From Anaerolineaceae bacterium (GTDB lineage Bacteria > Chloroflexota > Anaerolineae > Aggregatilineales > Phototrophicaceae): DNA of 64,000 nt. A model generated the notes under the pieces. That model saw only the letters and a program-made list of their open reading frames with translations. It had not been told where the DNA came from and searched no databases. This document shows positions 31,638-48,752 of the stretch, in pieces; position 1 is the first letter of the stretch, and the number at the start of each line of letters is the position of its first letter. Location: NCBI GenBank assembly GCA_002699585.1, contig PABP01000021.1:62001-126000 (forward strand). The letters run 5' to 3'. The position numbers and the translations under genes are program-made.

Positions 31638-31657
31638 GAATAAACCCCATACTGGCG

Positions 31658-32602: not shown

Positions 32603-32652
32603 GATGACCTTCCTGTTAAAGACTCGTACAGTATAGAACGATGTACAGTAGC

Positions 32653-33648
32653 CTAAATATCAATGTCGACGATTTTCTGGATAAGGGCGCCACCCATACC
32701 AATTAAGGCGAGTCCCAGACCGATCATTGGCCAACCGCATTCACGATTGGTGAACATACGCCCCATGTATTGTTCATTGACCGTCATGAGCAGTAGTGCA
32801 ACGGCAATTGGCAAACCACTGATAACGTAACCTGTGATGCGCCCTTGAGACGTCAAAACACGAATCTCGCCCTTGAGCTTGATACGCTCGCGGATCGTTG
32901 CGCCAATAACTTCCAGAATTTCTGCTAGGTTACCACCGACCTCACGCTGAATATTGACGGCAGTAATTACCAGATCAAGATCAGGGCTGTCCAGACGATC
33001 CAACATATGATCCAGGGCATCTGGCACATCGATACCAATCTGGACCTCTTGTACAACGCGCTGGAACTCACTCTGGGTAGGTTCTGGTGCATCCTGTGCG
33101 ATGGCTTCCATAGCCTGCAAAACGCTGTAACCGGATCGGAGGGCGTTAACCCATAAGCCCAGCGTGTCAGGTAATTGCGTTTCGAAGGCAATCAGACGTT
33201 TGTTGATGGCGCGCCCCACATAAATACGCGGGACAAAGTAACCAATCACCGCACCGACAACGGCCATTGCAATGCTACCCGGACTGACAAACAGGTACAT
33301 GATAGCAAAGCCTGCCGCAACCGATGCGACCTGTGCGACAGCATATTCGGCTACTGTCAGCTTGATATCCGCACGGGCAAGCCGTCTTCGGGCATTTTTA
33401 CCGAATCGTCGCTCGGTCAGATAATTATTGATAGGTTCGAGGAGCTTGCGTCCTTCATCGATGCCGCTGTCGGCACCTTCGGCATCGTCTTCTTCATACT
33501 CCGGGAAGTCATTGAGGTCAGAGTCAATTTGGCCTAGCCGCGCCTCCACCAGGTCTTCGCGTCGGCTCGTAATGGCGCCAAATATGATGATCCCTATGGC
33601 GATTGCCCCGGCAACCCCTAGAATGAGTAATTGCTCAGGTCCTAACAT
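32653..33648 (-). CDS. tadB: Type II secretion F-domain protein, TadB-like
   Basis: A 331-residue paralogue and partner of TadC in the Tad platform. It has an N-terminal helix (about 5-25), two helices near 105-145, the T2SSF domain (FETQLPDTLGLWVNALRSGY, then IQREVGGNLAEILEVIGATI) and two C-terminal helices (about 270-330). The pattern and position between cpaF and tadC identify it as TadB. It starts 104 bases after cpaF stops. Confidence 0.91.
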   Translation of the reverse strand: MLGPEQLLILGVAGAIAIGIIIFGAITSRREDLVEARLGQIDSDLNDFPEYEEDDAEGADSGIDEGRKLLEPINNYLTERRFGKNARRRLARADIKLTVAEYAVAQVASVAAGFAIMYLFVSPGSIAMAVVGAVIGYFVPRIYVGRAINKRLIAFETQLPDTLGLWVNALRSGYSVLQAMEAIAQDAPEPTQSEFQRVVQEVQIGIDVPDALDHMLDRLDSPDLDLVITAVNIQREVGGNLAEILEVIGATIRERIKLKGEIRVLTSQGRITGYVISGLPIAVALLLMTVNEQYMGRMFTNRECGWPMIGLGLALIGMGGALIQKIVDIDI

Positions 33649-33752
33649 TGAATCGCGCCTCTCTGATTTCGGGCTATCTTTTGCACTGTTTTCATTACCT
33701 GTGAAGCAGTCACAAACTGAATATCAATGTGGCTATTCGGAAAACTCAAGTT

Positions 33753-35123
33753 TTAACGGCGCCCCACACCGAAAACAGTCGGCGGTAGGGTGATACCTGC
33801 ATCTTCAATGCGGTCAATGAACTTTGGCCGGATGCCCGTCGGGCGAATGCGACCTACAATGCGGCCCTCTTCATAGCCCGTCTGTTCAAACTCAAAGATA
33901 CCGGACATGGTAATCATTTCGCCTTCCATGCCTTGCACTTCGGATATTTCCACGATTTTACGTGATCCATCGCGTAGGCGGGATTGCTGAACAATACAGT
34001 CAACCGCGCTTGCGATCTGTTCCTTGATTGCTCGCGTGGGCAACTCCATACCAGCCATCAAGCACATAACTTCAAGACGAGCGACCGAGTCGCGCGGCGA
34101 ATTCGCGTGGAGGGTTGTCAATGAACCATCGTGGCCGGTATTCATCGCCTGGAGCATATCCAGCGCTTCACCGCTACGGCACTCACCAACCACAATGCGC
34201 TCAGGACGCATACGCAAGCAATTGACGACGAGATCGCGAATTTCAATCGCACCTTTGCCTTCGATGTTGGCCGGACGGCTCTCCAATGGCACCACATGTT
34301 CCTGCTGAAGTTGCAGCTCAGCCGCGTTTTCTACGGTGATGATGCGCTCATCATTGGGGATAAAGCTTGAAAGCACGTTTAGTAGGGTGGTTTTACCAGA
34401 ACCTGTGCCGCCAGAGACAACCATGTTCAGGCTGGCGATAACACATGCCCGCAGGAAGTGGGCAATTTCAGAAGTCATGGTCCCGAAGTTAATCAAATCC
34501 TGGACAGTGTAGGGTGTCTTAGAAAACTTACGAATCGTAATGGTCGGGCCGCATAGTGCGATAGGACGAATAACGACATTCACACGCGACCCATCTGGAA
34601 GACGAGCGTCAACAAGCGGTTGGCTTTCATCAACACGACGACCCAGTGGGGCGACAATACGGTCAATAACGCGCATGACGTGGTCGTCATCGTCAAAGCT
34701 CACACCCGCCAGGGTGATGCGCCCCTTCCGTTCGACAAAGACATTCTTTGGCCCATTAACCATAATTTCTGTAACGGATTCATCGCTCAACAGAGATTCG
34801 ATGGGACCAAAACCCAGGATGTCGGCGATGATCGTTTTGAAGAGCCGTTCACGCTCTGACTTTGCGATAACGATGTTTTCTTCCGCCAGAATGTTGTTAA
34901 ACAACTCCTGGATCTGGCGGCGAATTTCGTCTTTACGAGAGATGTCTAGCGAAGGATCAAGCTCTGACAGTAGTTTGTTTTGAATCCGTGTCTTCAGGTC
35001 AGCATAACCTTCTTGCGCGCCTGGGGTTGCCTTTCGATTGGCTGGTGTGCGCCCTGCGCCGCTACCTGACTGATCGCCTTCGCCCTTTGAACCACCTTTT
35101 TCAATGCGTCTTAACAATGACAT
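33753..35123 (-). CDS. cpaF: Tad secretion ATPase CpaF/TadA
   Basis: A 456-residue hexameric secretion ATPase that powers assembly of Flp/Tad pili. Residues 1-40 are a basic, disordered lead; the N-domain follows (DPSLDISRKDEIRRQIQELF); Walker A is GGTGSGKTTLLN (about 245), the Asp box and Walker B region is MRPERIVVGECRSGEALDML (about 308), and the His box is LTTLHANSPRDSVARLE. The ATG has GGAG upstream. It is the cytoplasmic motor of the operon and acts on the TadB/TadC platform. Confidence 0.96.
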   Translation of the reverse strand: MSLLRRIEKGGSKGEGDQSGSGAGRTPANRKATPGAQEGYADLKTRIQNKLLSELDPSLDISRKDEIRRQIQELFNNILAEENIVIAKSERERLFKTIIADILGFGPIESLLSDESVTEIMVNGPKNVFVERKGRITLAGVSFDDDDHVMRVIDRIVAPLGRRVDESQPLVDARLPDGSRVNVVIRPIALCGPTITIRKFSKTPYTVQDLINFGTMTSEIAHFLRACVIASLNMVVSGGTGSGKTTLLNVLSSFIPNDERIITVENAAELQLQQEHVVPLESRPANIEGKGAIEIRDLVVNCLRMRPERIVVGECRSGEALDMLQAMNTGHDGSLTTLHANSPRDSVARLEVMCLMAGMELPTRAIKEQIASAVDCIVQQSRLRDGSRKIVEISEVQGMEGEMITMSGIFEFEQTGYEEGRIVGRIRPTGIRPKFIDRIEDAGITLPPTVFGVGRR

Positions 35124-35217
35124 CGCATGACTCCATTAAACTGCTGGCGTTAAGTTGACGGATAGGGCGAACCGGTTCATTTAGGGACTGAAAAGAGCGG
35201 CATTTTCTTTGGTGCCG

Positions 35218-36540
35218 CTAGCTTTTGCCAAATGAAAACAGTCCGCGCCGTTCTTTTGACTTTTCGGTTTCTTGATCTTCGACCAGCGTACCCATCATAC
35301 TGCCGTAAAGCGTATCAGACAACTCCAGCAGGCGTTTTACGATTGGCTTATTGGGGTCACGCATCGCAATAACCGGGACACCTTTGTTGATTGCATTCAA
35401 GATGAAATACTCGTCTGTCAGCGGGATAGAGGCTGTGACATCCATCTTGAGATAGTTTGAAATGCGGTCTGGCGTAGGGTGTGCCCGCTGATGCCGCGAT
35501 GGATTCTCGATTGCTTTATTGACCACCAGGGCCACTTTTTCTTTGTTGACGTTGCTCTTTTCCAGCAGATCAAGCACCAGCTTAACATTCTTGATGGCTG
35601 GCAAGGTGGGCGTGACCACGACAACGATCTTCGTTGCCAGCTCCAGCAAACCCGCCACGACAGCATCTATGTTGTGGCTGGTATCTACGACGACAAAATC
35701 GTAGTAATACCGGATTTGCTCGATGATGGCTGACACGGCATCTGGGTTCAACTCGCGTATGTCCGCACCCACATTTGGCAGTGAAGGGCTTAACAATACA
35801 CGAATACCACTATTATGCGTGGCAACAACGCTGTCGAAGTACTCCGCATCGAGGTCATCCGTTTTGTCCGCCAACTCGGAAATGGTCGATTGCGACCTCA
35901 AGTCGAGGAAAGTGCCTACATCGCCGAACTCAAGATCGGCATCCACAACCAGGGTCTTGATGTCCTCTTTCATAAGGCCGGAAGCGAGATTGGTTGCGAT
36001 AGTGGTACATCCGGTACCACCGGCTGGGCTGTAAACCACGATAACGTGTCCAGCGCGTGTGCCATCGTCTGGACGCTTTTCGTCGGCGGGATCCATCAGC
36101 ATAGCCGATGGATCGTTCATACGACGGAAACGCTCGCGGATGGGCGCATACTGCTCGTACACGTTGCGTATCGTGCCATAAAGCTGATCCGTGCTCGGAG
36201 GTTTGCTCAGGAAGAAACGCGCACCTGCGAGCATCGCCCGTTGCATATAGTCGGAGTCATCCTGAACAGACATCATGATGACCCCGACGAACGGAAGCGC
36301 TTTGGTGATGCGGCTGGCTGCCTCCAGGCCGTCCATATCAGGCATGTTGATATCCATGATGACGATATCCGGTTGCAGTTCTTGCACTAATGCAACCCCT
36401 TGACGCCCATTTTCAGCCGTGCCAACGACTTTGAAGTCTTGCTCGAAGGACAGAAGGCGTTGGATACCATCACGCGCATCTTGTATGTCATCTACAAGAA
36501 TGATCGTAATACTATCACTGCCATCGTCTGGTCGCTTCAT
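35218..36540 (-). CDS. cpaE: Receiver domain fused to CpaE/TadZ-like ATPase
   Basis: A 440-residue fusion. Residues 10-125 are a full response-regulator receiver: acidic pocket at VDD (17-18), phospho-acceptor D63 (VIMDINMPD) and K113 (FLSKPPS). Residues 163-415 are a MinD/ParA-type ATPase of the CpaE/TadZ class, which places the Tad machine in the cell. The P-loop reads SPAGGTGCTT, so both the signature Lys and the Walker A Lys are missing, as happens in several CpaE proteins; DTSHNIDA carries the Walker B Asp. D63 is intact, so phosphorylation by a kinase is possible, perhaps by the one encoded 1.5 kb upstream. It lies 15 bases after cpaB. Confidence 0.92.
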   Translation of the reverse strand: MKRPDDGSDSITIILVDDIQDARDGIQRLLSFEQDFKVVGTAENGRQGVALVQELQPDIVIMDINMPDMDGLEAASRITKALPFVGVIMMSVQDDSDYMQRAMLAGARFFLSKPPSTDQLYGTIRNVYEQYAPIRERFRRMNDPSAMLMDPADEKRPDDGTRAGHVIVVYSPAGGTGCTTIATNLASGLMKEDIKTLVVDADLEFGDVGTFLDLRSQSTISELADKTDDLDAEYFDSVVATHNSGIRVLLSPSLPNVGADIRELNPDAVSAIIEQIRYYYDFVVVDTSHNIDAVVAGLLELATKIVVVVTPTLPAIKNVKLVLDLLEKSNVNKEKVALVVNKAIENPSRHQRAHPTPDRISNYLKMDVTASIPLTDEYFILNAINKGVPVIAMRDPNKPIVKRLLELSDTLYGSMMGTLVEDQETEKSKERRGLFSFGKS

Positions 36541-36555
36541 TATGTTACACCTATC

Positions 36556-37770
36556 TTATGGGTTCGTTTCAGGTTCGCTCGTGACCGTATTCAACTGAAT
36601 GCGAGTACCAACTTCCAATTGGCGAATACTACGAATCGCTGGCTCAATACTATAGGGCAGGCGATCCGGCAGGGTAATGCGGAAGCGGTTCAAGATGTAA
36701 TCCAATGTAACCGGGTCTGTTTCTGCCAGCGACGTGCTAGAAGCTGAGCGCAATGCGAAAGTAATCGGAACACCGGCTTCAACGTACCATGTTAAGACGA
36801 CAGCATCCTGTGGCGAAACTGCCAAGGCGATGATGTCAGGGCGCGGCACTTCGGTCGGGGGGACCGGTGTGCCATCATTGGTGCGGCGGCTGCTGGCTGC
36901 TTCAGTTTCTTCATCTTCTGCTTGCGGCAGAGGAGTCGGTGTTGGGGCAATGAAGAGACGACCGTCCGCCGGGAAGTCACCTACGTTGACAACCAACGCA
37001 TTTTGAATCGTTCGCTGGGTCGTAAGACGGGGCCGCTGCTGTTCAGATGGGCGGACCATGACTGGAACTGTACCGAGGTTAGGCACGATACGTGTGTCAA
37101 AGCGGCCATCTATTGGGTCTGAGAAAATGAATGTACCTTCTTCGCCTTCTGGGTTCGCAAGCATGAAGGAGAACTCATTGGGCGAAGCAGATTGGAACTG
37201 GTCATCGACATCGATGAAGAGCAACGAAACCATGACATCAACTCGATCACCTGGCTGAATAGCGTAAGCTACACTGGTCAGCCGGTCCATCGGCACGGCG
37301 ACCAATACTCGGTTGGATGGCAGCATTGCTGCGGCGTCCGAACCGACATTGCCGCTGTTTGCCAGGGCCACCAGGTCATCAACGACCTTGCCCTGGATGA
37401 TGATTTCTTCGCGGGCAATATCCGTACGTGCGATTTTACCAATGACATCTTCTGCCTCAGAAAATGCGCTAAATGGTGAGAATTGCTCAGGGATTTGCAC
37501 AACAGCAACCATATTTTCAGCGATAGGCAGGCCGCGCGGAATATCCTGCACCGCGATCACGACTTCCACAACCTCAATCGGCTCTGCCGTCGGTTCTGGT
37601 GTTGAACGTGTCGTTGTCTCACGCGTCGGTTGTTGAGCAGCAGACGTTGAAGCCGGGGTCGAGTCGTTTGTCGCCCCGTTTCCAGTATTTTGAAGCAGTA
37701 GGGCTGCAATCACCGCAACCACAATGATGATTAAGGCCAGGAGCAGGAACAGCCGTGTCCTTGAATTCAT
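36556..37770 (-). CDS. cpaB: Flp pilus assembly protein CpaB/RcpC
   Basis: A 404-residue membrane-anchored protein. The ATG at 37770 has GGAGAG 6-8 bases upstream; an ATG 33 bases earlier lacks one. One helix (about 6-27) is followed by a Thr/Ser/Pro linker, a SAF domain (about 60-130, VVEVVIAVQDIPRGLPIAEN) and the RcpC domain (VLVAVPMDRLTSVAYAIQPG, DRVDVMVSLLFID). In diderms CpaB works at the secretin; none is seen here. It is the first gene of the motor operon, with a fair sigma-70 promoter about 110 bases upstream. Confidence 0.9.
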   Translation of the reverse strand: MNSRTRLFLLLALIIIVVAVIAALLLQNTGNGATNDSTPASTSAAQQPTRETTTRSTPEPTAEPIEVVEVVIAVQDIPRGLPIAENMVAVVQIPEQFSPFSAFSEAEDVIGKIARTDIAREEIIIQGKVVDDLVALANSGNVGSDAAAMLPSNRVLVAVPMDRLTSVAYAIQPGDRVDVMVSLLFIDVDDQFQSASPNEFSFMLANPEGEEGTFIFSDPIDGRFDTRIVPNLGTVPVMVRPSEQQRPRLTTQRTIQNALVVNVGDFPADGRLFIAPTPTPLPQAEDEETEAASSRRTNDGTPVPPTEVPRPDIIALAVSPQDAVVLTWYVEAGVPITFALRSASSTSLAETDPVTLDYILNRFRITLPDRLPYSIEPAIRSIRQLEVGTRIQLNTVTSEPETNP

Positions 37771-37887
37771 GTTTCTCTCCGTGTTGGAATTGATCGCCCC
37801 CACATGAGCGACATTTCGCCGTTAATTACTTCAATCAATAATATAATGAAACCACACAATGCGATATTAAGGTTGCGGGCTATTTTA

Positions 37888-37915
37888 AGTGTAATGCAAT
37901 GCGATTAATTGTCAA
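37888..37915 (-). promoter_or_regulatory. Candidate sigma-70 promoter of the Tad motor operon
   Basis: On the minus strand TTGACA (37915-37910), a 16-base spacer and TACACT (37893-37888) form a good match to the vegetative consensus. It would give a leader of about 110 bases before cpaB. Confidence 0.5.
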
Positions 37916-37983
37916 ACGTACCTTAGTCGCGTCGTAATCTTACGATGTGGATTGCCACATTGAGTATGTTCAGTCCAAAATAA

Positions 37984-38031
37984 ATAAAAAAGAATAAAGA
38001 CATGTCACGAAGGATGCCGGCATGTCTTTAT
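37984..38031 (-). terminator. Rho-independent terminator of the two-component operon
   Basis: On the minus strand ATAAAGACATG pairs perfectly with CATGTCTTTAT (11 bp) around a 16-base loop, followed by a T-rich TCTTTTTT tail. It lies 25 bases after the histidine kinase stop. Confidence 0.88.
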
Positions 38032-38056
38032 CAATATTCGGAACAAAGATAGCGAT

Positions 38057-39154
38057 TTATTTGAAGTTCGTCGTGGGTTCGCCTGCCGGTATTTCCATGC
38101 GCACGACGGTTCCATCCACTTCAGAACTCTGAACATGAATGGTGCCACCGACCAACTCAAGCTTGTCTCTGAGCATGTTCATGCCCTTGACCCGCACATC
38201 ATGGGCCTGTTCAGCCAGTTCAGGGTCTTGTAGTACGGAGGCATCAAAACCGTTGCCATCATCTTCGACACTCATCTTGATCTTATCGCCCGCCATGTCC
38301 AGTTTGATCTCTACCCGGTTAGGTGCGGCATAATCGCGTGCCATACTCAGTGCATCCTGGATGCTGCGGAATATCATGACCTCGCGGTGATTCTCCAGGC
38401 GACGATCATCGTTGATGATCTGTACCTTGGTTTCGATGTCATTCTTTTCTTCATAGCTTTCTAAATAGCGTCGGACGGTTGGTGCGACGCCCAGGTCATC
38501 GAGCATCATCGGGCGAAGGTCGAAGATAAAGTCACGCACTTTTTGGAATGTGCTGCTGGCATTTGTTTTGAGGTTTTCCAACTCTTCCGCCGCACGATCT
38601 GGATTGCGATCAAACAGCCGTTGGCAGATTTCTGCCTGGAGGATGAAGTTGGTAAGGGATTGAGCCGGGCCATCATGCATCTGACGTGCCAGCCGTTGCC
38701 GTTCTTCTTCCTGCGCCTGGATGACGCCCGCCACATCGAAAGCCCGCATGTTTTCGTTACCGCTGGAATCAGGCAGGACATCATAGCCCTGTAGAATACT
38801 CAGAATTTGAGCGTAGGTCTTTTGATATTGCTCCAACATCTGATAGTTGGACTCGAATTTTTCGAGTTGGCCGCGCATGGTCGCCAGCCTGAAGCGCACA
38901 TCAAGTGCTTCATCATACTTGTCGCGGATGTCTTCACGGGGGACAGTTGCCAGGTTCTCTTTGATCGTTCGCAATTCCGTCGCGATGCCAGTATAGCGCG
39001 TTTGCTCGCGGTCAACGGAATTCTGCATACTCTCAATCTGGTCTTTGATTTCAGTAAGACGCCGCCGCGCATTGTCCATCTCCTTAGTTAAAAGGTCGAT
39101 GATTTCCGTTCTCGCGTCGAGTTCGTCCCCGATTTGTTCGTTGAAGTCTGCCAT
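38057..39154 (-). CDS. Cytosolic sensor histidine kinase (HisKA_3/DegS-like)
   Basis: A 365-residue kinase with no membrane segment. Residues 1-118 are a long coiled coil (LTKEMDNARRRLTEIKDQIE), as in DegS. The HisKA_3 dimer and phosphotransfer domain has H160 in RQRLARQMHDGPAQSLTNF, and the HATPase_c domain follows (NRVEIKLDMAGDKIKMSVED, DDGNGFD, GMNMLRDKLELVGG). Its start is 2 bases after the response regulator stops, so the two form one operon. The signal is unknown and must be cytosolic or passed by partner protein. Its place next to the Tad motor operon with a receiver-CpaE protein suggests a shared control circuit, by inference. Confidence 0.93.
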   Translation of the reverse strand: MADFNEQIGDELDARTEIIDLLTKEMDNARRRLTEIKDQIESMQNSVDREQTRYTGIATELRTIKENLATVPREDIRDKYDEALDVRFRLATMRGQLEKFESNYQMLEQYQKTYAQILSILQGYDVLPDSSGNENMRAFDVAGVIQAQEEERQRLARQMHDGPAQSLTNFILQAEICQRLFDRNPDRAAEELENLKTNASSTFQKVRDFIFDLRPMMLDDLGVAPTVRRYLESYEEKNDIETKVQIINDDRRLENHREVMIFRSIQDALSMARDYAAPNRVEIKLDMAGDKIKMSVEDDGNGFDASVLQDPELAEQAHDVRVKGMNMLRDKLELVGGTIHVQSSEVDGTVVRMEIPAGEPTTNFK

Positions 39155-39156
39155 CG

Positions 39157-39846
39157 TCAGGCCTCCTGCTGATTGTCGTTGAGCCGTACCCAGCCACGGC
39201 GCAAGGCCAGGATAGCGGCCTGGGTACGATCATTGACGTTGAGCTTCTTCAAGATTGAAGTCATGTGATTTTTGACAGTTTGCTGGCTAATGCCCAACTT
39301 GCTGGCAATTTCTTTATTGATGAGGCCACTGGTCACATATTCCAAGATTTCCATTTCACGCGGACTCAGTGGGATATAATGGTCATCAGCATCTGTCTTA
39401 TAACCTATATTATCCTCAAGTTGGGAATTCAACCAATTGAGGTATTCGTTATGGCTCATGTATTTATCGCCAACCACAAAGTAGCCCTTAGCCACTGCTC
39501 GAATGATGGATACGAGGGAATCGGCATCGACATCTTTTGCACAATACGCAGATGCCCCTGAGCGCATGGCGTGTAAGGTTTGTTCGTCATCGTGGTGGGC
39601 TGTCAGAATGACAATCGAGGTATCGCCAGCAGTAGACCGCAATTTCCTGGCAACTTGTAGGCCATTGACCCCCGGCAAGTTCACATCAAGGAGGACAACA
39701 TCGGGGTTCAATTCGTTGATCTTATTTAACGCAGTTTGGCCATCTTCACCAACCCCAACGACCTCAATATCATCGGCAAAACTGAGTGCTCCCATCAAGC
39801 CCTCGCGGTAGAGGGGGTGGTCATCAACAATAATTACTGTGATCAT
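39157..39846 (-). CDS. NarL/DegU-type response regulator
   Basis: A 229-residue regulator with a receiver domain (acidic pocket VDDH at 7-10, phospho-acceptor D54 in VVLLDVNLPG, K at AKDVDADS replaced region) and a LuxR/NarL helix-turn-helix (about 160-215, REMEILEYVTSGLINKEIAS and QQTVKNHMTSILKKL). The conserved receiver Lys position reads CAKDVD, which keeps the Lys. It is first in the operon with the DegS-like kinase. Targets are unknown; pilus and surface genes nearby are candidates. Confidence 0.94.
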   Translation of the reverse strand: MITVIIVDDHPLYREGLMGALSFADDIEVVGVGEDGQTALNKINELNPDVVLLDVNLPGVNGLQVARKLRSTAGDTSIVILTAHHDDEQTLHAMRSGASAYCAKDVDADSLVSIIRAVAKGYFVVGDKYMSHNEYLNWLNSQLEDNIGYKTDADDHYIPLSPREMEILEYVTSGLINKEIASKLGISQQTVKNHMTSILKKLNVNDRTQAAILALRRGWVRLNDNQQEA

Positions 39847-40172: not shown

Positions 40173-40967
40173 ATGTTACCTGCTGACGAGCTAGCCGCAG
40201 TAGAAGTTGACAACATCAAATACTATTACAATCCGGCTTGGCGGGGCATCAAACACGGCATCTTTACTCGTCAGGGTGGTTACAGTCAGGCGCCCTGGGG
40301 CGGCCTAAATGTTGGCGGCACCGTCGGCGATGATTTGCAGGCGGTTCGCTCAAATCACAGCTTGATCTATGACAAGCTTGGCATGAATCAGTCGCGCTCC
40401 TGCACGACATGGCAGGTACATGGAGCCGATGTCGTCGTGGCAACTGGCCCCGTAAGCGGCCGGCGCTGGCTGGCTCAGGCCGATGGCATGGTGACAAATC
40501 TGCCGGATACACCGCTGTTCATGCGTTATGCGGATTGCACCCCTTTACTGTTTTACGACCCTGAAAATAGCGCAATTGGCATTGCCCATGCGGGTTGGCG
40601 TGGAACGGTTCAAGGAATTGCGACAAACATGGTGCAGACCATGCAGTTTATCTATGGAACACAGCCTGCACGCCTACAGGTGATTATCGGCCCTAGCATC
40701 TCCTGTGAGAAATTCCAGGTGGGGCAGGAAGTTGTCGATGCGCTAGAGGACTACTTCGGTACATTAGATGGCTTGATGCGCCGTGATGCCTCCGATGGAA
40801 CCGCCTATGTGGACCTTTGGGCGGCTAATGAACTGGCATTGCACCGCTGCGGTGTGGAAAATGTCACTGTCAGTGGCATCTGCACTTACCAGAATACGGA
40901 TGAGTTCTTCTCACATCGTGCAGAAAACGGGCGTACCGGGCGTTTTGGTGCTGCCATCAGCTTATAG
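40173..40967 (+). CDS. pgeF: PgeF/YfiH (LACC1-like) multifunctional purine nucleoside enzyme
   Basis: A 264-residue zinc enzyme of the DUF152 family. Members act on purine nucleosides (phosphorylase, deaminase) and were once called polyphenol oxidase; in peptidoglycan work PgeF edits wrongly charged cell-wall precursors. The metal and catalytic residues are H83 (WQVHGADVV), C122 (ADCTPLLFYD) and H139 (IAHAGWRG), all present. The C-terminal FFSHRAENGRTGRFGA is standard. It is followed 40 bases later by yggS, a common pairing in bacteria. Confidence 0.94.
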   Translation: MLPADELAAVEVDNIKYYYNPAWRGIKHGIFTRQGGYSQAPWGGLNVGGTVGDDLQAVRSNHSLIYDKLGMNQSRSCTTWQVHGADVVVATGPVSGRRWLAQADGMVTNLPDTPLFMRYADCTPLLFYDPENSAIGIAHAGWRGTVQGIATNMVQTMQFIYGTQPARLQVIIGPSISCEKFQVGQEVVDALEDYFGTLDGLMRRDASDGTAYVDLWAANELALHRCGVENVTVSGICTYQNTDEFFSHRAENGRTGRFGAAISL

Positions 40968-41007
40968 AGGCTGTGTCTTAGCGGTATATTCTTAGAAATG
41001 TGATGAT

Positions 41008-41745
41008 ATGAGTCGTGAACGTGAAATTGCCAACAATATCGATGAAGTTCAGGAACAAATTGCATTAGCTTGCGCGCGTGCAGGTCGTTCGGTCGATGAT
41101 GTCAAATTGGTCGCGGTCAGCAAGACAAAGCCCATTGAAGACATTTTAGCGGCTACCAAAGTTGGCATTCGGGACTTTGGCGAAAACCGAATTGAAGAAG
41201 CTTCCGAAAAGATTCCCGCTGTGAATGATATGTTGGATCAGACCGTGGTGTGGCATATGATCGGTCATATACAGAGCCGCAAAGCCCGGGATGTTGTGCC
41301 CTTGTTTGCTTCAGTTCATTCGGTCGATTCGCTGAAGATCGCACGCAAGCTATCTTCACTGGCCTCAGAAGAAGGCAAAACCCTAAACGTATTTGCTGAA
41401 GTCAATGTATCCGGTGAGCCACAGAAATATGGTTTTGAAGCATCCAACTGGCAGATAGATGCCCAGCAATTTGATATGCTGCAACAAACTATTTCACAGA
41501 TCGCTCAGCTTCCTGGGCTAAAATTGGTCGGTCTGATGACAATGGCACCCTTTGTCAGTGATGCTGAACGGACCCGCCCCGTATTTGCGAGCATGGCCGC
41601 GCTGCGTTCTGAGTTGGCGAGTAAGCTAGCTATCAGCCTGCCGCACTTGAGTATGGGTATGACCAATGACTATACGGTCGCCATAGAAGAAGGTGCAACG
41701 ATGGTGCGGGTGGGTACGGCGATTTTTGGTGCACGCAATACATAG
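41008..41745 (+). CDS. yggS: YggS/PLPBP pyridoxal-phosphate homeostasis protein
   Basis: A 245-residue fold-type III PLP-binding protein that buffers free pyridoxal 5'-phosphate and affects amino-acid pools; it has no known enzyme activity. The cofactor Lys is K39 in LVAVSKTKP; FGENRIEEA, WHMIGHIQSRKA and the phosphate-binding LSMGMTNDYTVAIEEGATMV are present. Full length for the family. In many bacteria it sits beside yggT, as here. Confidence 0.95.
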   Translation: MSREREIANNIDEVQEQIALACARAGRSVDDVKLVAVSKTKPIEDILAATKVGIRDFGENRIEEASEKIPAVNDMLDQTVVWHMIGHIQSRKARDVVPLFASVHSVDSLKIARKLSSLASEEGKTLNVFAEVNVSGEPQKYGFEASNWQIDAQQFDMLQQTISQIAQLPGLKLVGLMTMAPFVSDAERTRPVFASMAALRSELASKLAISLPHLSMGMTNDYTVAIEEGATMVRVGTAIFGARNT

Positions 41746-41904
41746 TCTTGCTGATAAAGTGTCGTCTATATAGGAATTTCTAATGAACATATAGCGACCG
41801 CGTGCTACTCTCATACGTTATATAAACAGTGATCAATTAGTGTAATTTCGTTAAAACGTTGCAGAATAGGCAACGAATCCCGTAGAAGATGAGGAGTAAT
41901 CCCT

Positions 41905-42168
41905 ATGACCATGTTGATTTCGCTGCTGATGTGGGCGCTACAGATTTATAGCTTTGTCCTGGTCGCCCGCGCGCTGATGACTTGGATACCCAATCTTGAT
42001 TACAGCAACCCGATCGTGCGCTTCCTGATTAACGTTACCGAGCCAGTTTTGCGCCCGGTACGTCAGATGCTGCCCTCTAACAGTGGTGCGGATTTCAGCC
42101 CATTGATTGTGCTTGTTGGCATCATGCTGATTCGTATGGTGCTTGGCCAGATAGTCTGGTCATTCTAA
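41905..42168 (+). CDS. YggT-family membrane protein
   Basis: An 87-residue integral membrane protein with two helices (about 4-24 and 62-84) and the family motif LDYSNPIVRFLINVTEPVLR. YggT proteins are linked to cell division, pigment organisation and osmotic tolerance in various phyla. GAGGAG lies 9 bases before the ATG. It follows yggS by 159 bases. Confidence 0.92.
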   Translation: MTMLISLLMWALQIYSFVLVARALMTWIPNLDYSNPIVRFLINVTEPVLRPVRQMLPSNSGADFSPLIVLVGIMLIRMVLGQIVWSF

Positions 42169-42183
42169 TGACTCGGTGCTGGT

Positions 42184-42344
42184 AGACAATTGTCTAGTCG
42201 CATTAACGATGATTTATCACTATTTATTACGGTTCGGCGTATAATAGATTTGGGAATACGTGCGCGTATTCCTGGTCTGTTGTAAACTTACGGTATAACG
42301 TTAGTGAAATATCATCCTGATGCGACGTGTTGCGTGAGGCAACA
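42184..42344 (+). promoter_or_regulatory. Structured leader of the DUF167 gene
   Basis: This 205-base gap holds a perfect 12-base palindrome AGACAATTGTCT (42184-42195), a TATAAT (42240-42245), then an 8-bp hairpin GGAATACG-TGCG-CGTATTCC (42253-42272) that would begin near the transcript start, and a 6-bp hairpin TGTTGC/GCAACA (42328-42344) whose right arm is repeated at 42350-42355. No T-tract follows, so these are not ordinary terminators. Confidence 0.4.
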
Positions 42345-42382
42345 AATAGGCAACAGGGTGTGCCAACTGAGGGATGTCAAAG

Positions 42383-42691
42383 ATGTCTGAACGTAAATTT
42401 GAGTTTACGGATATTCGTGGGGGCGCAGCGATTGGTGTGCGCGTCGTAACCAGGGCAGCGGGTACAGAGTTAGCGGGTCGCTTAGAGGATGGAACGCTCA
42501 AAGTGCGCTTGCAGGCATCACCAGCAGGTGACCCGGCTGCCAATGCTGAGTTGGTTGCTTTCATCGCCGACTTACTCAATGTCGATGCATCAGCCATCGA
42601 GGTTGTTGCTGGCGAAGATAAGCGTGATAAGCTCCTGAGTATCGAAGGACTATCAACGTCAGATGTTGAGGCACGTCTTCAATTGGATTAA
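42383..42691 (+). CDS. DUF167 (YggU) family protein
   Basis: A 102-residue protein of the DUF167 family. The ATG at 42383 is chosen since GAGGG lies 9 bases upstream; an ATG at 42374 would touch that site. Signatures are GAAIGVRVVTRA, LKVRLQASPAGDPAANAELV and the C-terminal VVAGEDKRDKLLSIEG. Function is unknown. The family often clusters with yggS and yggT, as here. Confidence 0.9.
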   Translation: MSERKFEFTDIRGGAAIGVRVVTRAAGTELAGRLEDGTLKVRLQASPAGDPAANAELVAFIADLLNVDASAIEVVAGEDKRDKLLSIEGLSTSDVEARLQLD

Positions 42692-42737
42692 CCTCTGGAT
42701 TAAACTCGTGTGGCCCAAGTTAAATAACGTATCTTCA

Positions 42738-43526
42738 ATGCACGCAAAACACCTGGTTGTTATCTGCGTGCTTTCTCTTTTATTGTTGGCGAACTGTAGC
42801 ACGGCTGCTGTAGAATCGACGCTTGTCGCGACTCAGCCCCTCATAGCCGCCAGTGCCACGCCCACCCAACCACAGCCAACGGTCACACCAACTCCTGAAC
42901 CCCTCACGTCTGCTAGCGAAATCAATACGCGCACTTCGGAATCCAGCGAACTGGTTCCACTGATCACGGGTGATGTCTCCCTTTCTGCTGAATTCTTGAG
43001 TGCCATTCAGATGGATATAGCCCAGCGGCTACAGATTGATGCGGATCGTATCCTGTTGGGGCAGGTTGTGCCAGCAACCTGGACCCATCCAGATCTCGGC
43101 TGTGGAAATACGCAGGACTTCGTACGAGCGATTGATGGTTATGCCCTGGCCTGGATCGTCAATAACCATGTCTATGACGTGCATACCCGCGGCGAATCCG
43201 ACTATGTGTTATGCAGTGGCTCGCAGACTGTCAGCGGCGATTTGCTGATGGCGGTTGATGCCATCGCCGCTGATTTATTTGGTTTGGTTCAGCGTCGCTT
43301 ATCCAACGAACTTGATTTACCGCAGCAGCGCATTCGCTTAGTCAATGCCTATGCGGTGACCTGGCCGGATAACAGCCTGGGCTGTCCTCAGCCAGATGAA
43401 GATTATACAGACGCCGAACTACGCGGCTATCGCATTGAAGTCCTGGTTGGCGAAACGACTTACATTTTCCATACAGACGACTCTCGCTTGGTCGCATGCA
43501 CACCTGAACGCGAAGTGCTCCCTTAA
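42738..43526 (+). CDS. Lipoprotein with a duplicated WPD-LGCP domain
   Basis: A 262-residue lipoprotein with lipobox LLANC (Cys at 20); the ATG at 42738 opens the signal, while the longer frame from 42663 overlaps DUF167 and adds no signal logic. After a Thr/Pro linker come two related domains of about 85 residues: the first has RLQIDADRILLGQVVPATWT, DLGCGN, YDVHTRGESDYVLCS; the second has ELDLPQQRIRLVNAYAVTWP, DNSLGCPQP, YIFHTDDSRLVACT. Paired Cys suggest one disulphide each. Similar W-x-D-x-S-L-G-C-P domains appear in many exported proteins of this phylum without known role. Shadows the 3' end of a possible operon with DUF167. Confidence 0.8.
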   Translation: MHAKHLVVICVLSLLLLANCSTAAVESTLVATQPLIAASATPTQPQPTVTPTPEPLTSASEINTRTSESSELVPLITGDVSLSAEFLSAIQMDIAQRLQIDADRILLGQVVPATWTHPDLGCGNTQDFVRAIDGYALAWIVNNHVYDVHTRGESDYVLCSGSQTVSGDLLMAVDAIAADLFGLVQRRLSNELDLPQQRIRLVNAYAVTWPDNSLGCPQPDEDYTDAELRGYRIEVLVGETTYIFHTDDSRLVACTPEREVLP

Positions 43527-43533
43527 GCCGAAG

Positions 43534-46119
43534 TTAGGCTGGTAACGGGAGCTTTTTGTCCATCCCATGCTGCAAGTTCATCAGCGCTTGATAGGCCATA
43601 TCGCGCACGCCTTCATTGGGGTCAAACAGCCGTTGATAAATCACGGGGGCAGATTGCGTTAGATCAAGTTGGGATGCGGTCAGCAGCGCCATATAACGTA
43701 TGTCTTCCTGGCGGCTCTTCATGGCGAAGTGCAGCATTTCTTCACCGGTCGCTTCTTCATCTACAGCACCCGCGCGCTGTTGTTGTGCTCCCCAGTCCAA
43801 TAACCAGGAAACGGAATTTGTATGCGGGTAGCCAACCACGCCCTGGCTCTCTTTTTCGTAGATTTTGCGGAACACTTCCATAGCCGCTAGACGTACGTAG
43901 TATTCTTCCTCCCCTGAAGAGACGACCTCATTGATCGTGATGAGTGCCCAGTTGGTGCGAATACGACCCAATCCAAAGATAATGGCACGTCGCATCAAGA
44001 TGTCTTTGACTTCGCTAACGGCGTCATAAAGCGTTTCATAGCCAATTTCAGGGTAAAGCGCCAGCATCTCCGCTGCTGCCCGCCGAACACCGCGGCTGAT
44101 ACTTTCTTGCATTGCATTGACCATAGCAACCAGCGAGTCATCTGTGCCAATGGCACCGAGACTGAGCGTTGCGGCAATCTTGACACCCTCATTTGAATTT
44201 TGTAGCAGCCGGCTTATTGGCTGTACGGCTGCGACATCCTTGATTGCCCCCAGGCCCAGGCAAGCAACGCGGCGCACATCCGGGTTCGGGTTCTGCACAG
44301 CCGCTCGTAAGATCACGATCGCGCCTTCATCCCGGCTGCTGACCAACGCCGCAGCAATTCGCTGGCGAATTGGCGAGAATTGATTCGGTGCAACCAGCAA
44401 ATTGCCCAGTAGGCGCAAATAATGGTTACGCCAGCTTGCCGGTTTACCCGCGTAACTCAGCCATTTTGAAACACTCAGGATGGAATCAAGCGCGACGTCG
44501 CGCGGCTGTTCAAGTTTGGTTTTAACGGCCACATCGATAGGGACGATTTCTGCAGCATAAGCAATCGCCCGTTCCCAACTTGGGAACAGCGCTTTCTCGG
44601 CTAATTCATCGGAATCAGCATATTTCAGTCCTTCACCTGCAATAAATGCAGCCAGGATAGGATGCTTAAACTGGTAGCGCTGTGAGCTTCGTTTGAGAAG
44701 GACGTGATTCTGGGTCAGGAAGGTAAGTAGCTGTGTGACCCTGCGCCGTGGGGACGGTTGTTTGCTTTCTCCATTTTGAGCTTCATCTTCATCAAGGATG
44801 TCGAGCGGTGTCCATGTTGGCTGCTGACTTTCCCGTTCGATGAGCGTCGATAAGCGAATAGTGCCCTTATCGAGTTCCATCTCGGCCATAATCTGTAGGA
44901 AGGGTAGCCATGCTTCCAGGTCATCTAGGTGCTGGTTGAAGTACGTTTGGGACCACTTATGTTGCCAACCAAAACGATCCTCATCTTGTGTTTCAACGGC
45001 AGCAGCTGTTCCAGATTGTTTTAGATGATGGTTTATGAACAGTGCTATGTCAGCAGGCGGCAGAAATCGGCACTGATGGGTTAGTGTTTCTAGTTTTTCT
45101 GGTTCCAGTGGGTCTTCGCCATCATGCCACAGCGAGATGGCATCGGCGACGGTGGTTGTGTGCCAAGGCCTGACAAAGACCGGGGATATATCCATATCGC
45201 TCAGCCATTTATAGCCGGTTACAGCGCCAGTTACGACGAGGTAGTTTTGAGGATAGGTTTGCACAAACCCTTTGATCCAGCTGCGGGCCGTGTGTTGATT
45301 TTCGGTGGCCAACTCATCGTAACCATCAATCAACAAGGTCGCTCGACCGTTGACGATAGCCTTGTACAGGCTCTGGGGTAGTGTTTTAGCTGCGAGGAAG
45401 CTGTATTTCTTTTGTAGTAGATCGATCAATTGTTCTGCTGGGTCGATGATTTGTTGATTGGCTAAGGCCTCAAGATCGATTTCAGCAAGATGGCAGTAGA
45501 TCGGAACGCGCTCTTGGTAGGGTTGCGGGATGTCTCTTTCACTTCCTTCATCCGTTCCAATATAGGTTTTGCCATCACTTTCTGACATGCGTTCCTGAGC
45601 AAGCTGGGCAATGCGGATGCGTTGCTTGATGCGCTTGGCGCGCTCTTCTGGCGATAATTTTGCTTCGTATTTGTCGATTTCTGCCTGTACTTTGTCGTAC
45701 GGGGGTTGGAACTCCAACAAACCTAAGCTTTGAAGGGCAATACACATGAGTGCAAATGTTCGTCCGCTGCCAGGGTTACCGAGTATGGCGATATGCGGCA
45801 CGCCGTGGCTGAGTTCCGCAATGCCGAGAGTCGGGATGTTATATGCGGCGTGCAAAAACGGGTATGCCGGATCTTTGGGGACCATCTCAAAAACATCAGG
45901 GTCCACTTCTTGTTCGAGGCTTTCCGGGAGCGGTTCTGGCGCGATGAAACGCGGCTCTACAGCGACTTGGCTCAAGGGTGTGACATCGCCAAACAGGTGA
46001 TTCTGTTCGCAAAATCTTATGAATTCTGCCAGGTAACGGCTATCGATATGACGGGCAGAAAATTCTTGATTGACCGTCGTTGGGATGCCCTGTATGCGAT
46101 TTCTAAGTTTGCTAATCAT
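43534..46119 (-). CDS. NACHT-type NTPase with C-terminal HEAT repeats
   Basis: An 861-residue STAND-like NTPase. An N-terminal region (1-100) with FIRFCEQNHLFGDV is not identified. The NTPase core has HIAILGNPGSGRTFALM, whose Walker A ends in R120 instead of Lys (codon CGA on the minus strand), and ATLLIDGYDELATENQ (about 260-275), the extended Walker B with acidic pair typical of NACHT. A winged-helix-like region follows (to about 520), then at least six HEAT/PBS-type repeats (about 590-855, for example PDVRRVACLGLGAIKDVAAV). NACHT proteins work as NTP-driven switches; bacterial ones include antiphage sensors. The Arg makes NTP hydrolysis uncertain. It converges with the preceding lipoprotein gene and follows the zinc-ribbon gene by 29 bases. 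Confidence 0.85.
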   Translation of the reverse strand: MISKLRNRIQGIPTTVNQEFSARHIDSRYLAEFIRFCEQNHLFGDVTPLSQVAVEPRFIAPEPLPESLEQEVDPDVFEMVPKDPAYPFLHAAYNIPTLGIAELSHGVPHIAILGNPGSGRTFALMCIALQSLGLLEFQPPYDKVQAEIDKYEAKLSPEERAKRIKQRIRIAQLAQERMSESDGKTYIGTDEGSERDIPQPYQERVPIYCHLAEIDLEALANQQIIDPAEQLIDLLQKKYSFLAAKTLPQSLYKAIVNGRATLLIDGYDELATENQHTARSWIKGFVQTYPQNYLVVTGAVTGYKWLSDMDISPVFVRPWHTTTVADAISLWHDGEDPLEPEKLETLTHQCRFLPPADIALFINHHLKQSGTAAAVETQDEDRFGWQHKWSQTYFNQHLDDLEAWLPFLQIMAEMELDKGTIRLSTLIERESQQPTWTPLDILDEDEAQNGESKQPSPRRRVTQLLTFLTQNHVLLKRSSQRYQFKHPILAAFIAGEGLKYADSDELAEKALFPSWERAIAYAAEIVPIDVAVKTKLEQPRDVALDSILSVSKWLSYAGKPASWRNHYLRLLGNLLVAPNQFSPIRQRIAAALVSSRDEGAIVILRAAVQNPNPDVRRVACLGLGAIKDVAAVQPISRLLQNSNEGVKIAATLSLGAIGTDDSLVAMVNAMQESISRGVRRAAAEMLALYPEIGYETLYDAVSEVKDILMRRAIIFGLGRIRTNWALITINEVVSSGEEEYYVRLAAMEVFRKIYEKESQGVVGYPHTNSVSWLLDWGAQQQRAGAVDEEATGEEMLHFAMKSRQEDIRYMALLTASQLDLTQSAPVIYQRLFDPNEGVRDMAYQALMNLQHGMDKKLPLPA

Positions 46120-46148: not shown

Positions 46149-46856
46149 CTAATGACCCATATTGACAAGGATGCGTCCGCAGTTGCTGCAATAGACGAGT
46201 TCATCACCGGCGCGGACCGCTTTTGCAACAGTAGCAATCTGGGATACGCCACACACAGTACATGTATCGTTTTCAATAATCGACACAGCACGATTGCCCT
46301 TGGAACGCCGCAGGGATACATACGTGTTGAGCGTCTCACGATCAATTGTTGCGGCGATTTCCTGACGTCGTTCTTCCAGCAAGGGGTTTTGAGCGTTGAT
46401 TTGCTCTCGCTCTGTCAATAGCTCGGCGTTGCCAGCAGCAGCGGCTTCCAGGGCCTCATCATATTGCGCCTGCTGAAGATCAAGATTTTCCTGAGCGTTT
46501 TCCATGCTTCCCATAGCCACCAGCAGACGTTCATCCCATTCTGTCCGCCACTTACGCAGCGATTCCACTTCTTGCTGCATATCCTGTAGTTCTTTAGGGT
46601 TGGTCACAGAGCCGCTGTACAGGCGTGTTTCGGTTTGTGTCAGCTTCTCTTGATTCGACTGGATTTGGTGTTCAACGTCGTTGTAATGTGCTTTGACTGG
46701 CTTAAAGGCCGCTTCCGCTTGTTCAAGTGCTTGTTTAGCTTCTTGCACAGCCTGATTATCTTCTAGCGATGCTTCAATCGCACGCAGCCGACGTTTGTTG
46801 GCTATGAGTTCAAGCTCAACGGACTGTAGTTGGTATAATGTCTTTGCGGTATTCAT
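46149..46856 (-). CDS. Coiled-coil zinc-ribbon protein (DUF164/CT398-like)
   Basis: A 235-residue protein: residues 1-180 form a long antiparallel coiled coil (LYQLQSVELELIANKRRLRA, YSGSVTNPKELQDMQQEVES), followed by a C-terminal zinc ribbon with two CxxC pairs (DTCTVCG and VYCSNCG). The SGSVTNPKEL segment is the family signature. Relatives such as CT398/CdsZ bind secretion or RNA-polymerase parts; the job in this phylum is unknown. It starts the minus-strand pair with the NACHT-HEAT gene, 29 bases apart. Confidence 0.88.
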   Translation of the reverse strand: MNTAKTLYQLQSVELELIANKRRLRAIEASLEDNQAVQEAKQALEQAEAAFKPVKAHYNDVEHQIQSNQEKLTQTETRLYSGSVTNPKELQDMQQEVESLRKWRTEWDERLLVAMGSMENAQENLDLQQAQYDEALEAAAAGNAELLTEREQINAQNPLLEERRQEIAATIDRETLNTYVSLRRSKGNRAVSIIENDTCTVCGVSQIATVAKAVRAGDELVYCSNCGRILVNMGH

Positions 46857-47087: not shown

Positions 47088-48752
47088 ATGCAAGCCACTT
47101 TTACAGGTTACGTTGGGCGTACAGAATGGCGTTGGGTCACAATTGTTTCTGCGTTGACCCTTTTCGCCATGTTACTGCCATATCTGGTTGTAACTGCACA
47201 AGCGCCTGACCAGACCTTCATGGGCGTGCTGCATAAGTATGAAGATGGGGCAGCTTACCTTTCCAAAATGGACCAGGGGGCCAATGGCAACTGGCTGACA
47301 TTTTTTCAGCATACGCCGGAGCCTCACGCTAGTGCCTTAATTCATCCACTTTATATGCTTTTAGGACATCTCACACGCTTATCGTTTTTCCCTCCGCTCT
47401 TGGTTTTTCACGGGGCAAGGGTGTTGGCAACACTCGTCATGTTCTCTGCCATATATCAACTCGGTGCCAATATCTGGGTCAAGCTGCGGGCCAGGCGAAT
47501 TTTCTTCGTCCTTGCTGTTTTTGGTTCGGGTTTTGGTTGGATCATTGTCTTGCTCAGTTCAGGTGATTTGGTCTCGCCTGATGTCAATATGCCTCATATG
47601 TACCCGCTCTACGCGGCGATGGTGAGCATACATTATCCTTTGAGTATTGCCTTCCAGGCGATGATTGCTTCTGTATTTATTGCTGTATTCCGGCCCGGTT
47701 TCACTTCAGAACCCACAGTTGATAATGGCGGAACGGTGATCTTCTTGGGAGGGGTGGTGCTCGCATTTCTCTTTCAAGAAGCACTTTTACCGATTATTAT
47801 CGCCGTGATTGGTAGTGTGCTGGCACGCTGGGTGCTTGATCGCAAGGTCAAAGCCTTTGAGCTTCGCTGGGCCATGTGGCTCATTGTTCCCATTTTTCCC
47901 ATCGCAGCCTATTACACCACGACTATTCAAAGTAACTTAGCCGTTGGCTTCTGGTTGAGCCAACGCCCTAGCGCATTGCCTTCCCTTGTTCTGACACTTT
48001 TGGGTCTGGGGCTGCCGCTTGTGCTAAGTATACCTGGGTTGGCCCGTGCACTGCGTCGTTTTGAAGAAGATGGCGACCGCTTTATGCTGCTTTGGCTGTT
48101 TGCGATGGTCGTAAGCTATTTCGTGGCGTCATCGGGTCGCGTGCAGTATTTGGCTGGTATTATGATTCCCATTGCGTATTTTGCGACGCGCGCCATCGAA
48201 GATTACTGGTTCAAACAGATTTTCTCACGCCGTATCCACCAGCAGCGAATTTACATCGCCCTGTTTCCTATAGTCATTTTGACAAACCTTTTTGTCCTCT
48301 TCTTGCCCGTCAGTGGTGTCATGGTCGGCGAACGTGTGGAGTCTTTTTTGCCAAATGACTATGTGGACACGTTCCACTATCTGAATACGATAAGCCAGCC
48401 CAATGAAGTTGTCATGGCAGCTCCTGTCATAGGAACATGGCTGCCTGCATACACTGATTTGCGATCCTACTATGGGCATCCTGCTGAAACGCTCCATGCT
48501 GCACAACGGCGCTCCGAGGTTATGGCCTTTTACCGTGCGCAATCACAAGCTGCCTGTAGTTTTGTCCAAGATGCGAGTCTCTTCAGATCAAACGGATTTG
48601 TTGTGCAATATGTGCTCTATGGCCCCGAAGAAGCTCGATTTGGACAACCCCCATGCTTGGAAGATTTGACGTTGTTGACGCGTATTGGTGATGTCCAGGT
48701 TTATACAACGCAATTTGTCGATATGGCTTCGGAACCTATTGAGTCTCCGTAG
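47088..48752 (+). CDS. Polytopic membrane protein, GT-C-like, unknown
   Basis: A 554-residue membrane protein with about 11 predicted helices. A first helix (about 15-35) is followed by a large outside loop rich in acidic and aromatic residues (KYEDGAAYLSKMDQGANGNW, HTPEPHASALIHPLYMLLGH), the layout of GT-C fold lipid-linked sugar transferases. The C-terminal outer domain (about 430-554) includes YVDTFHYLNTISQPNEVVMA, like the soluble tails of ArnT/PMT-type proteins. No clear DD/DE catalytic motif was found. AAGGTAGG precedes the ATG. First of five membrane genes in a row. Confidence 0.75.
   Translation: MQATFTGYVGRTEWRWVTIVSALTLFAMLLPYLVVTAQAPDQTFMGVLHKYEDGAAYLSKMDQGANGNWLTFFQHTPEPHASALIHPLYMLLGHLTRLSFFPPLLVFHGARVLATLVMFSAIYQLGANIWVKLRARRIFFVLAVFGSGFGWIIVLLSSGDLVSPDVNMPHMYPLYAAMVSIHYPLSIAFQAMIASVFIAVFRPGFTSEPTVDNGGTVIFLGGVVLAFLFQEALLPIIIAVIGSVLARWVLDRKVKAFELRWAMWLIVPIFPIAAYYTTTIQSNLAVGFWLSQRPSALPSLVLTLLGLGLPLVLSIPGLARALRRFEEDGDRFMLLWLFAMVVSYFVASSGRVQYLAGIMIPIAYFATRAIEDYWFKQIFSRRIHQQRIYIALFPIVILTNLFVLFLPVSGVMVGERVESFLPNDYVDTFHYLNTISQPNEVVMAAPVIGTWLPAYTDLRSYYGHPAETLHAAQRRSEVMAFYRAQSQAACSFVQDASLFRSNGFVVQYVLYGPEEARFGQPPCLEDLTLLTRIGDVQVYTTQFVDMASEPIESP

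Follow-up and report, generated by a model that had tools for sequence, protein, structure and literature searches.

The NACHT class is best known for immune roles; the Walker A lysine is treated as indispensable, and its change to arginine serves as a standard inactivating mutation. In the animal NLRs (NOD2, NLRP3 and NLRC4) the NACHT core is combined with an acidic Walker B motif, a helical domain, a winged-helix histidine and C-terminal repeats, and the P-loops of the NLRs and Apaf-1 all read GKS or GKT (PMC2323615, Table 2, which also lists the winged-helix histidine). The sensor 1 motif of the NLRs was used as given in PMC2323615; certain human NLRs are also without its arginine. Bacterial NACHT proteins (bNACHT) protect against phages, and NCH1 and SNaCT are named as their C-terminal domains (PMC12169576). 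Engineered Lys-to-Arg P-loop mutants often bind ATP without hydrolysing it, as in B. subtilis RecA K70R, in which hydrolysis is lost and some binding remains (PMC9769622); against binding, a plant NLR paper says that a change of the motif Lys to Ala or Arg loses nucleotide binding (PMC6713354).

The gene family described here shares with the animal NLRs all of the elements listed above for the NACHT module, with the bNACHT proteins a bacterial NACHT domain, and with RecA K70R the exchange of Lys for Arg at the corresponding residue of the P-loop. It differs from the NLRs by an arginine in the P-loop, the absence of a sensor-1 arginine, HEAT repeats in place of LRRs, the lack of any effector domain that could be found and, in most orthologues, an N-terminal hydrophobic segment. 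Unlike bNACHT defence proteins it is resident and syntenic, no effector was found, and HEAT repeats stand where NCH1 and SNaCT domains are found in those proteins, a contrast drawn by description only. Unlike that of RecA K70R, its arginine is natural, fixed by lineage and paired with Ser118, and the P-loop class is different. A literature search for NACHT proteins with a natural P-loop arginine, and for the present family, returned nothing on target; most subscription papers lay outside the search.

The window analysed was a stretch of 64,000 nucleotides of an Anaerolineaceae genome (contig PABP01000021.1, positions 62,001 to 126,000). The gene and the motifs of its product are as follows.

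43534-46119, minus strand: NACHT-HEAT gene with an 861-aa product (ATG start and no internal stop; from the open reading frame, Pfam and AlphaFold2)
45757-45780, minus strand: Walker A motif GNPGSGRT, aa 114-121 (from the sequence), with the Arg120 codon CGA at 45760-45762
45520-45699, minus strand: charged insert of helical structure, aa 141-200, which separates the Walker A helix from the strand that follows (AlphaFold2 model)
45310-45336, minus strand: extended Walker B motif LLIDGYDEL, aa 262-270, with D265, D268 and E269 (from the sequence)
44662-44664, minus strand: winged-helix His486 within RYQFKHP (assigned by motif)
43561-44370, minus strand: C-terminal HEAT repeats, about aa 584-853 (Pfam HEAT_2 and the model)

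Pfam NACHT matched the window protein below its cut-off (22.3 against 26.7 bits) and over aa 205-297 only; the orthologue of genome G014 exceeded the cut-off, with 30.8 bits. Pfam HEAT_2 matched the C-terminal part at 5.1e-24 in two stretches. The AlphaFold2 model of the window protein, built on 57 sequences, had a pLDDT of 90.5 and a pTM of 0.92. Artificial HEAT proteins were ranked first by Foldseek, as expected from the HEAT repeats, and NLRC4 and NOD2 were within the top 20. With a second structural aligner the best matches were NOD2-ADP and the NLRP3 NACHT module (Z 17.4, 407-412 residues, 12-14% identity), above HEAT-only entries at a Z of about 13; the match to NLR NACHT modules spanned aa 22-686 of the predicted fold. 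On this model the domain is a NACHT domain with helical and winged-helix parts, joined to a C-terminal HEAT array. A non-NACHT domain was ruled out by the G014 orthologue, the AlphaFold2 fold and the NOD2/NLRP3 match. The preliminary description of this DNA had proposed a NACHT-HEAT protein with GNPGSGRT and an acidic Walker B motif, and the open reading frame, the HEAT_2 match and the NOD2/NLRP3 fold match bear it out.

The extended Walker B pattern hhhhDGxDE was present (LLIDGYDE), and Asp265 was found in 123/123 Arg and Lys forms. The Walker A pattern GxxxxGK[ST] carried Arg120 in place of its invariant Lys, and an Arg corresponding to the sensor-1 TxR motif after strand 4 was found at aa 295-300 in 0/125 orthologues, Lys forms included. 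With Arg at this site in 70/125 orthologues and Lys in 53, we describe the family as having a NACHT fold and a P-loop variant, and withhold the label of canonical NACHT NTPase. By its motif, His486 is a putative counterpart of the winged-helix His of NLRs. In the model of the window protein the charged insert contains helices 143-153 and 157-181; it is much shorter in certain orthologues (e.g. L057-L059). In most NACHT-HEAT orthologues the N-terminus is hydrophobic and basic residues come directly after it (73/122 at or above 1.2, scored by a simple hydropathy window only; three more were too short to score). This hydrophobic segment is strong in distant lineages and less marked in many members of the Arg clade; the genus of the window lacks it, and there the gap to the CT398-like gene described below is only 29 bp.

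In a first search of 61 genomes (that of the window and 60 relatives) matches were found in 60, mostly to one full-length gene and in some cases to the HEAT part only. A genome collection was then scanned with patterns taken solely from the C-terminal repeats, to prevent bias toward either form of the P-loop. Of the 80 loci obtained, nearly all bore the label Anaerolineae, Chloroflexi or a subgroup. Forty further stretches were added across the class, and 129 distinct frames of at least 600 residues were aligned; four (L133, L047, L157 and L158), in which the P-loop was missing or misaligned, were excluded before counting. At aa 120 the 125 remaining orthologues, distinct and all from the class Anaerolineae, carried Arg (70), Lys (53), Thr (one) or Leu (one). 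On a 125-row maximum-likelihood tree from which the P-loop columns had been left out, residue 120 required at least nine changes, Thr and Leu included, and the family of the window (f1) formed one clade of 50 rows, 49 with Arg and one with Leu. On a smaller tree of 92 rows at least six changes were required, and 52 Arg-clade rows (f1 and four rows of family f4) were grouped; this clade, the basis of the codon count below, was not recovered in the 125-row tree, in which f1 is a clade by itself and f4 is placed elsewhere. Both trees were quick ones, without bootstrap. Since the root was not inferred, Lys is taken as the earlier state on the strength of its presence in other NACHT proteins. Among the other NACHT-family matches in the genome of the window and its relatives (36 non-orthologous loci, three of them unreadable), all 33 readable P-loops had Lys, three of the 33 coming from matches below the Pfam cut-off.

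Judged from the alignment and the trees, the P-loop Lys of the family was exchanged for Arg repeatedly, in several lineages, and the Arg was then preserved. A single-strain change is ruled out by the presence of Arg in 70/125 orthologues and in 49/50 rows of the family clade. The alignment of homologues proposed in the preliminary description was carried out, and Arg was fixed in a clade; neither of the objections raised there, a change confined to one strain and a domain other than NACHT, held.

In the 52-row Arg clade at least 22 codon changes had occurred at aa 120, with a single residue change; the codons were CGC, CGA, CGG, CGT, AGA and one CTG. The comparison columns gave 20 codon changes and 0 residue changes at Gly119, 23 and 0 at Ala123, and 36 and 27 at the free position 115. 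By these counts Arg120 is held by purifying selection, like the glycines of the P-loop. Of all columns scanned (aa 20-861) the one most associated with Arg120 was Ser118, two residues before it, which was found in 67/70 Arg forms against 17/53 Lys forms; in seven independent pairs, 4.9 changed in the same direction and 0.1 in the opposite one (sign test, median p 0.06).

The rest of the nucleotide pocket was retained in the Arg forms. Asp265 was present in 70/70 Arg forms and 53/53 Lys forms, and all 70 Arg forms had Asp or Glu at position 268 and Thr or Ser at position 121. The winged-helix His486 was found in 59/70 Arg forms and 37/53 Lys forms, and Pro355 of a putative GxP motif in 56/70 Arg forms; retention of the pocket motifs was no better in the Lys forms than in the Arg forms. 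The preliminary description had offered three options for the arginine. Of these, a lineage form that still works and a locked switch (here, one that holds nucleotide) are favoured, since the Arg codon is under purifying selection and the remaining pocket residues are kept; the nucleotide-free scaffold is disfavoured.

Our working reading, which we regard as evenly balanced between right and wrong, is that the Arg form is a NACHT switch that holds nucleotide, hydrolyses it slowly or not at all, and is resident in Anaerolineae (Chloroflexota). It is drawn from the conserved pocket, the selected Arg and the missing sensor-1 Arg; its slow or absent hydrolysis rests on the published engineered Lys-to-Arg changes (RecA K70R). 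The protein would be a STAND switch of the NACHT class, vertically inherited across the class Anaerolineae. Nucleotide would be bound through the main chain of the P-loop, Thr/Ser121, the Walker B Asp and the winged-helix His, with Arg120 perhaps gripping the phosphates; with slow or absent hydrolysis, the protein could then serve as a conformational switch or adaptor that nucleotide holds in one state for a long time. From the architecture, the HEAT repeats may read a ligand or a partner protein, and from the architecture and the gene order the membrane may be where the switch works, with a CT398-like protein as a possible companion in many lineages. A more specific statement is held only tentatively: that the P-loop Lys is exchangeable class-wide, and that the Arg forms, locked in GSGR, are non-hydrolysing, nucleotide-holding switches with a resident, membrane-associated role and not a role in defence. 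The natural Lys/Arg exchange, with matched Lys sister forms, offers a direct way to ask if nucleotide occupancy is enough for a STAND switch or if hydrolysis is required, and the family would exemplify a NACHT protein with a resident role beyond immunity. This importance hinges on whether the Arg forms bind nucleotide and do not hydrolyse it.

A normally hydrolysing NACHT ATPase or GTPase, in which Lys and Arg are interchangeable and the pocket is reshaped by Ser118 and by the missing sensor-1 Arg, is rather unlikely in our view. The repeated switching between Lys and Arg (the nine or more changes counted above, Thr and Leu among them), the Walker B acidic residues, which all Arg forms have kept, and the association with Ser118 speak for such an enzyme. 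Arg nevertheless stays fixed in the 50-row family clade, with no drift back, and engineered Lys-to-Arg changes often abolish hydrolysis (PMC9769622). The second acidic position of the Walker B motif, residue 269, also differs between the forms, with 31 Glu and 32 Asp among the 70 Arg forms and 42 Glu and 8 Asp among the 53 Lys forms; the commoner Asp in the Arg forms is a possible sign of weaker catalysis.

A nucleotide-free scaffold, in which the pocket is vestigial and the HEAT repeats form an assembly platform, is improbable for the family. It would accommodate the replacement of Lys by Arg and the family-wide lack of the sensor-1 Arg, and two orthologues lean toward it: L041 (genome G007) has an intact frame with Leu at the P-loop slot, Arg for Asp268 and Tyr for the winged-helix His, and L034 has an intact gene with Thr at the P-loop slot. 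These Leu and Thr orthologues make a scaffold possible in some lineages, and since both genes are intact and neither Asp268 nor the winged-helix His survives in L041, nucleotide may not matter in every lineage. A dead pocket is, however, expected to decay, and from its substitutions L041 seems to be a lineage in which the pocket is decaying; by contrast, the Arg forms have not decayed, and the strong constraint on Arg120, Gly119, Thr/Ser121, Asp265 and Asp268 is at odds with a vestigial site.

The genes that flank the NACHT-HEAT gene in the window are as follows.

46149-46856, minus strand: CT398/CdsZ-like protein with a coiled coil and a C4 zinc ribbon (Pfam CT398_CC, 6.7e-15; Zn_ribbon_9, 7.4e-8)
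47088-48752, plus strand: divergent polytopic membrane protein of no confident family (Pfam DUF7519 only below cut-off)
40173-43526, plus strand: convergent block of pgeF, yggS-like, yggT-like and DUF167/yggU-like genes and a predicted lipoprotein gene (conserved neighbours)

The CT398-like gene lies 29 bp upstream of the NACHT-HEAT gene in the window, and the two are probably in one operon. It was directly upstream in 89 of the 120 orthologue loci whose upstream sequence was long enough, and these range from the taxonomic order of the window to distant families. Its product belongs to the coiled-coil hairpin and C4 zinc ribbon proteins of the CT398/CdsZ/HP0958 type, both Pfam matches being above cut-off; the NCBIfam CdsZ model matched below its cut-off (65 against 275 bits). 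The coiled coils of CT398 and HP0958, which are related in structure, bind proteins (PMC5947703). A role linked to RpoN through this neighbour was considered and rejected: the genome of the window (96% complete) gave no match for a sigma-54 DNA-binding domain, which makes a sigma-54 (RpoN) role unlikely here. An obligate pairing of the two genes was likewise rejected. When the CT398-like protein of the window was searched in 18 genomes, four that bear the NACHT gene had no match (G016, G032, G031 and G042) and eleven without a NACHT orthologue retained a CT398-like gene, so that each gene occurs alone and an obligate partnership is weakened. The polytopic membrane protein adjoined the NACHT/CT398-like pair in 16/16 long loci and is a conserved neighbour in the taxonomic order of the window. 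In that taxonomic order the pgeF-yggS-yggT-yggU block often comes after the NACHT gene, and the divergent membrane protein before it. The yggS, yggT and yggU names are those that we presume from the sequences. The assignment of pgeF was by TIGR00726.

The NACHT-HEAT protein matched in 139/396 genomes of the class at E ≤ 1e-40, nearly always as a single gene. In a sample of 251 genomes of the phylum there were 22 matches, all 22 within the class Anaerolineae. Within the taxonomic family of the window at least 20 listed genomes were without a match, and the gene is therefore not essential there. Searches of 50,697 phage records gave no match, and those of 72,556 plasmid records one short, weak match, at 30%. 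Single copy, synteny with housekeeping genes and absence from the phage records make this, by gene order, a resident and vertically inherited gene and not mobile defence.

An antiphage or cell-suicide sensor akin to bNACHT and Avs, the angle raised in the preliminary description, is accordingly at odds with most of what was found, and we consider it very improbable. The NACHT class is shared with bacterial proteins that protect against phages (PMC12169576). Against such a role, no effector domain was found in the window protein by Pfam, NCBIfam or PADLOC, and none of a bNACHT/Avs type was fused or adjacent to it, the neighbours being the CT398-like gene, the membrane protein and the pgeF block. 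Nor was the patchy, mobile or island setting of bNACHT/Avs genes seen at this single-copy gene, syntenic class-wide with housekeeping genes and all but missing from the phage and plasmid records just described. PADLOC matches to HEAT-ARM_XIII, WGR_XIII and mad8 fell on the HEAT part and the P-loop only and were taken to reflect a likeness of the repeats or of the P-loop. The description had also placed the gene in a genome without other visible defence genes, which proved incorrect: the genome has N6_Mtase matches (E 3.7e-108 and others) and several further NACHT proteins with the canonical Lys, among the other defence candidates, and Cas1 was not found in it.

A drift from Lys to Arg in GC-rich genomes is scarcely credible as the cause of the exchange, for although the GC content of the Arg-form loci is slightly higher (median 0.588 against 0.543, p 0.05) and the protein-wide Lys fraction is lower in the Arg forms (p 0.002), in statistics that ignore relatedness, the two forms overlap widely (Arg forms at 46% GC, Lys forms at 68% GC), the locus of the window has 50% GC with Lys making up 41% of its basic residues, and other NACHT proteins of the same genomes retain Lys.

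Several minor features of the region were recorded. The Tad/Flp pilus cluster at 30927-39846 of the window (CpaB, a CpaE-like protein with a receiver domain, CpaF and two T2SSF proteins, accompanied by a DegS-like kinase and a LuxR-type regulator) is a conserved near neighbour of the NACHT gene across much of the family, and Tad pilus genes were not seen near it at distant loci. The predicted lipoprotein at 42663-43526 carries an LLANCS motif, and its halves resemble, by eye, two copies of one domain; it had no NCBIfam match and was kept in 10/16 long loci. In genera g17 and g19 (L232-L234 and L236-L239) the NACHT gene is absent and the CT398-like gene is followed directly by convergent yggT-yggS-pgeF, and yggU and the lipoprotein gene were also not seen there; the arrangement looks as it would after a clean loss of the NACHT gene, with the genes on the pgeF side closed up. 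Two records titled Pleurocapsa minor and Bacteroidetes bacterium (L079 and L121) carry the gene in the Anaerolineae gene order and group with Anaerolineae, and their labels are probably wrong.
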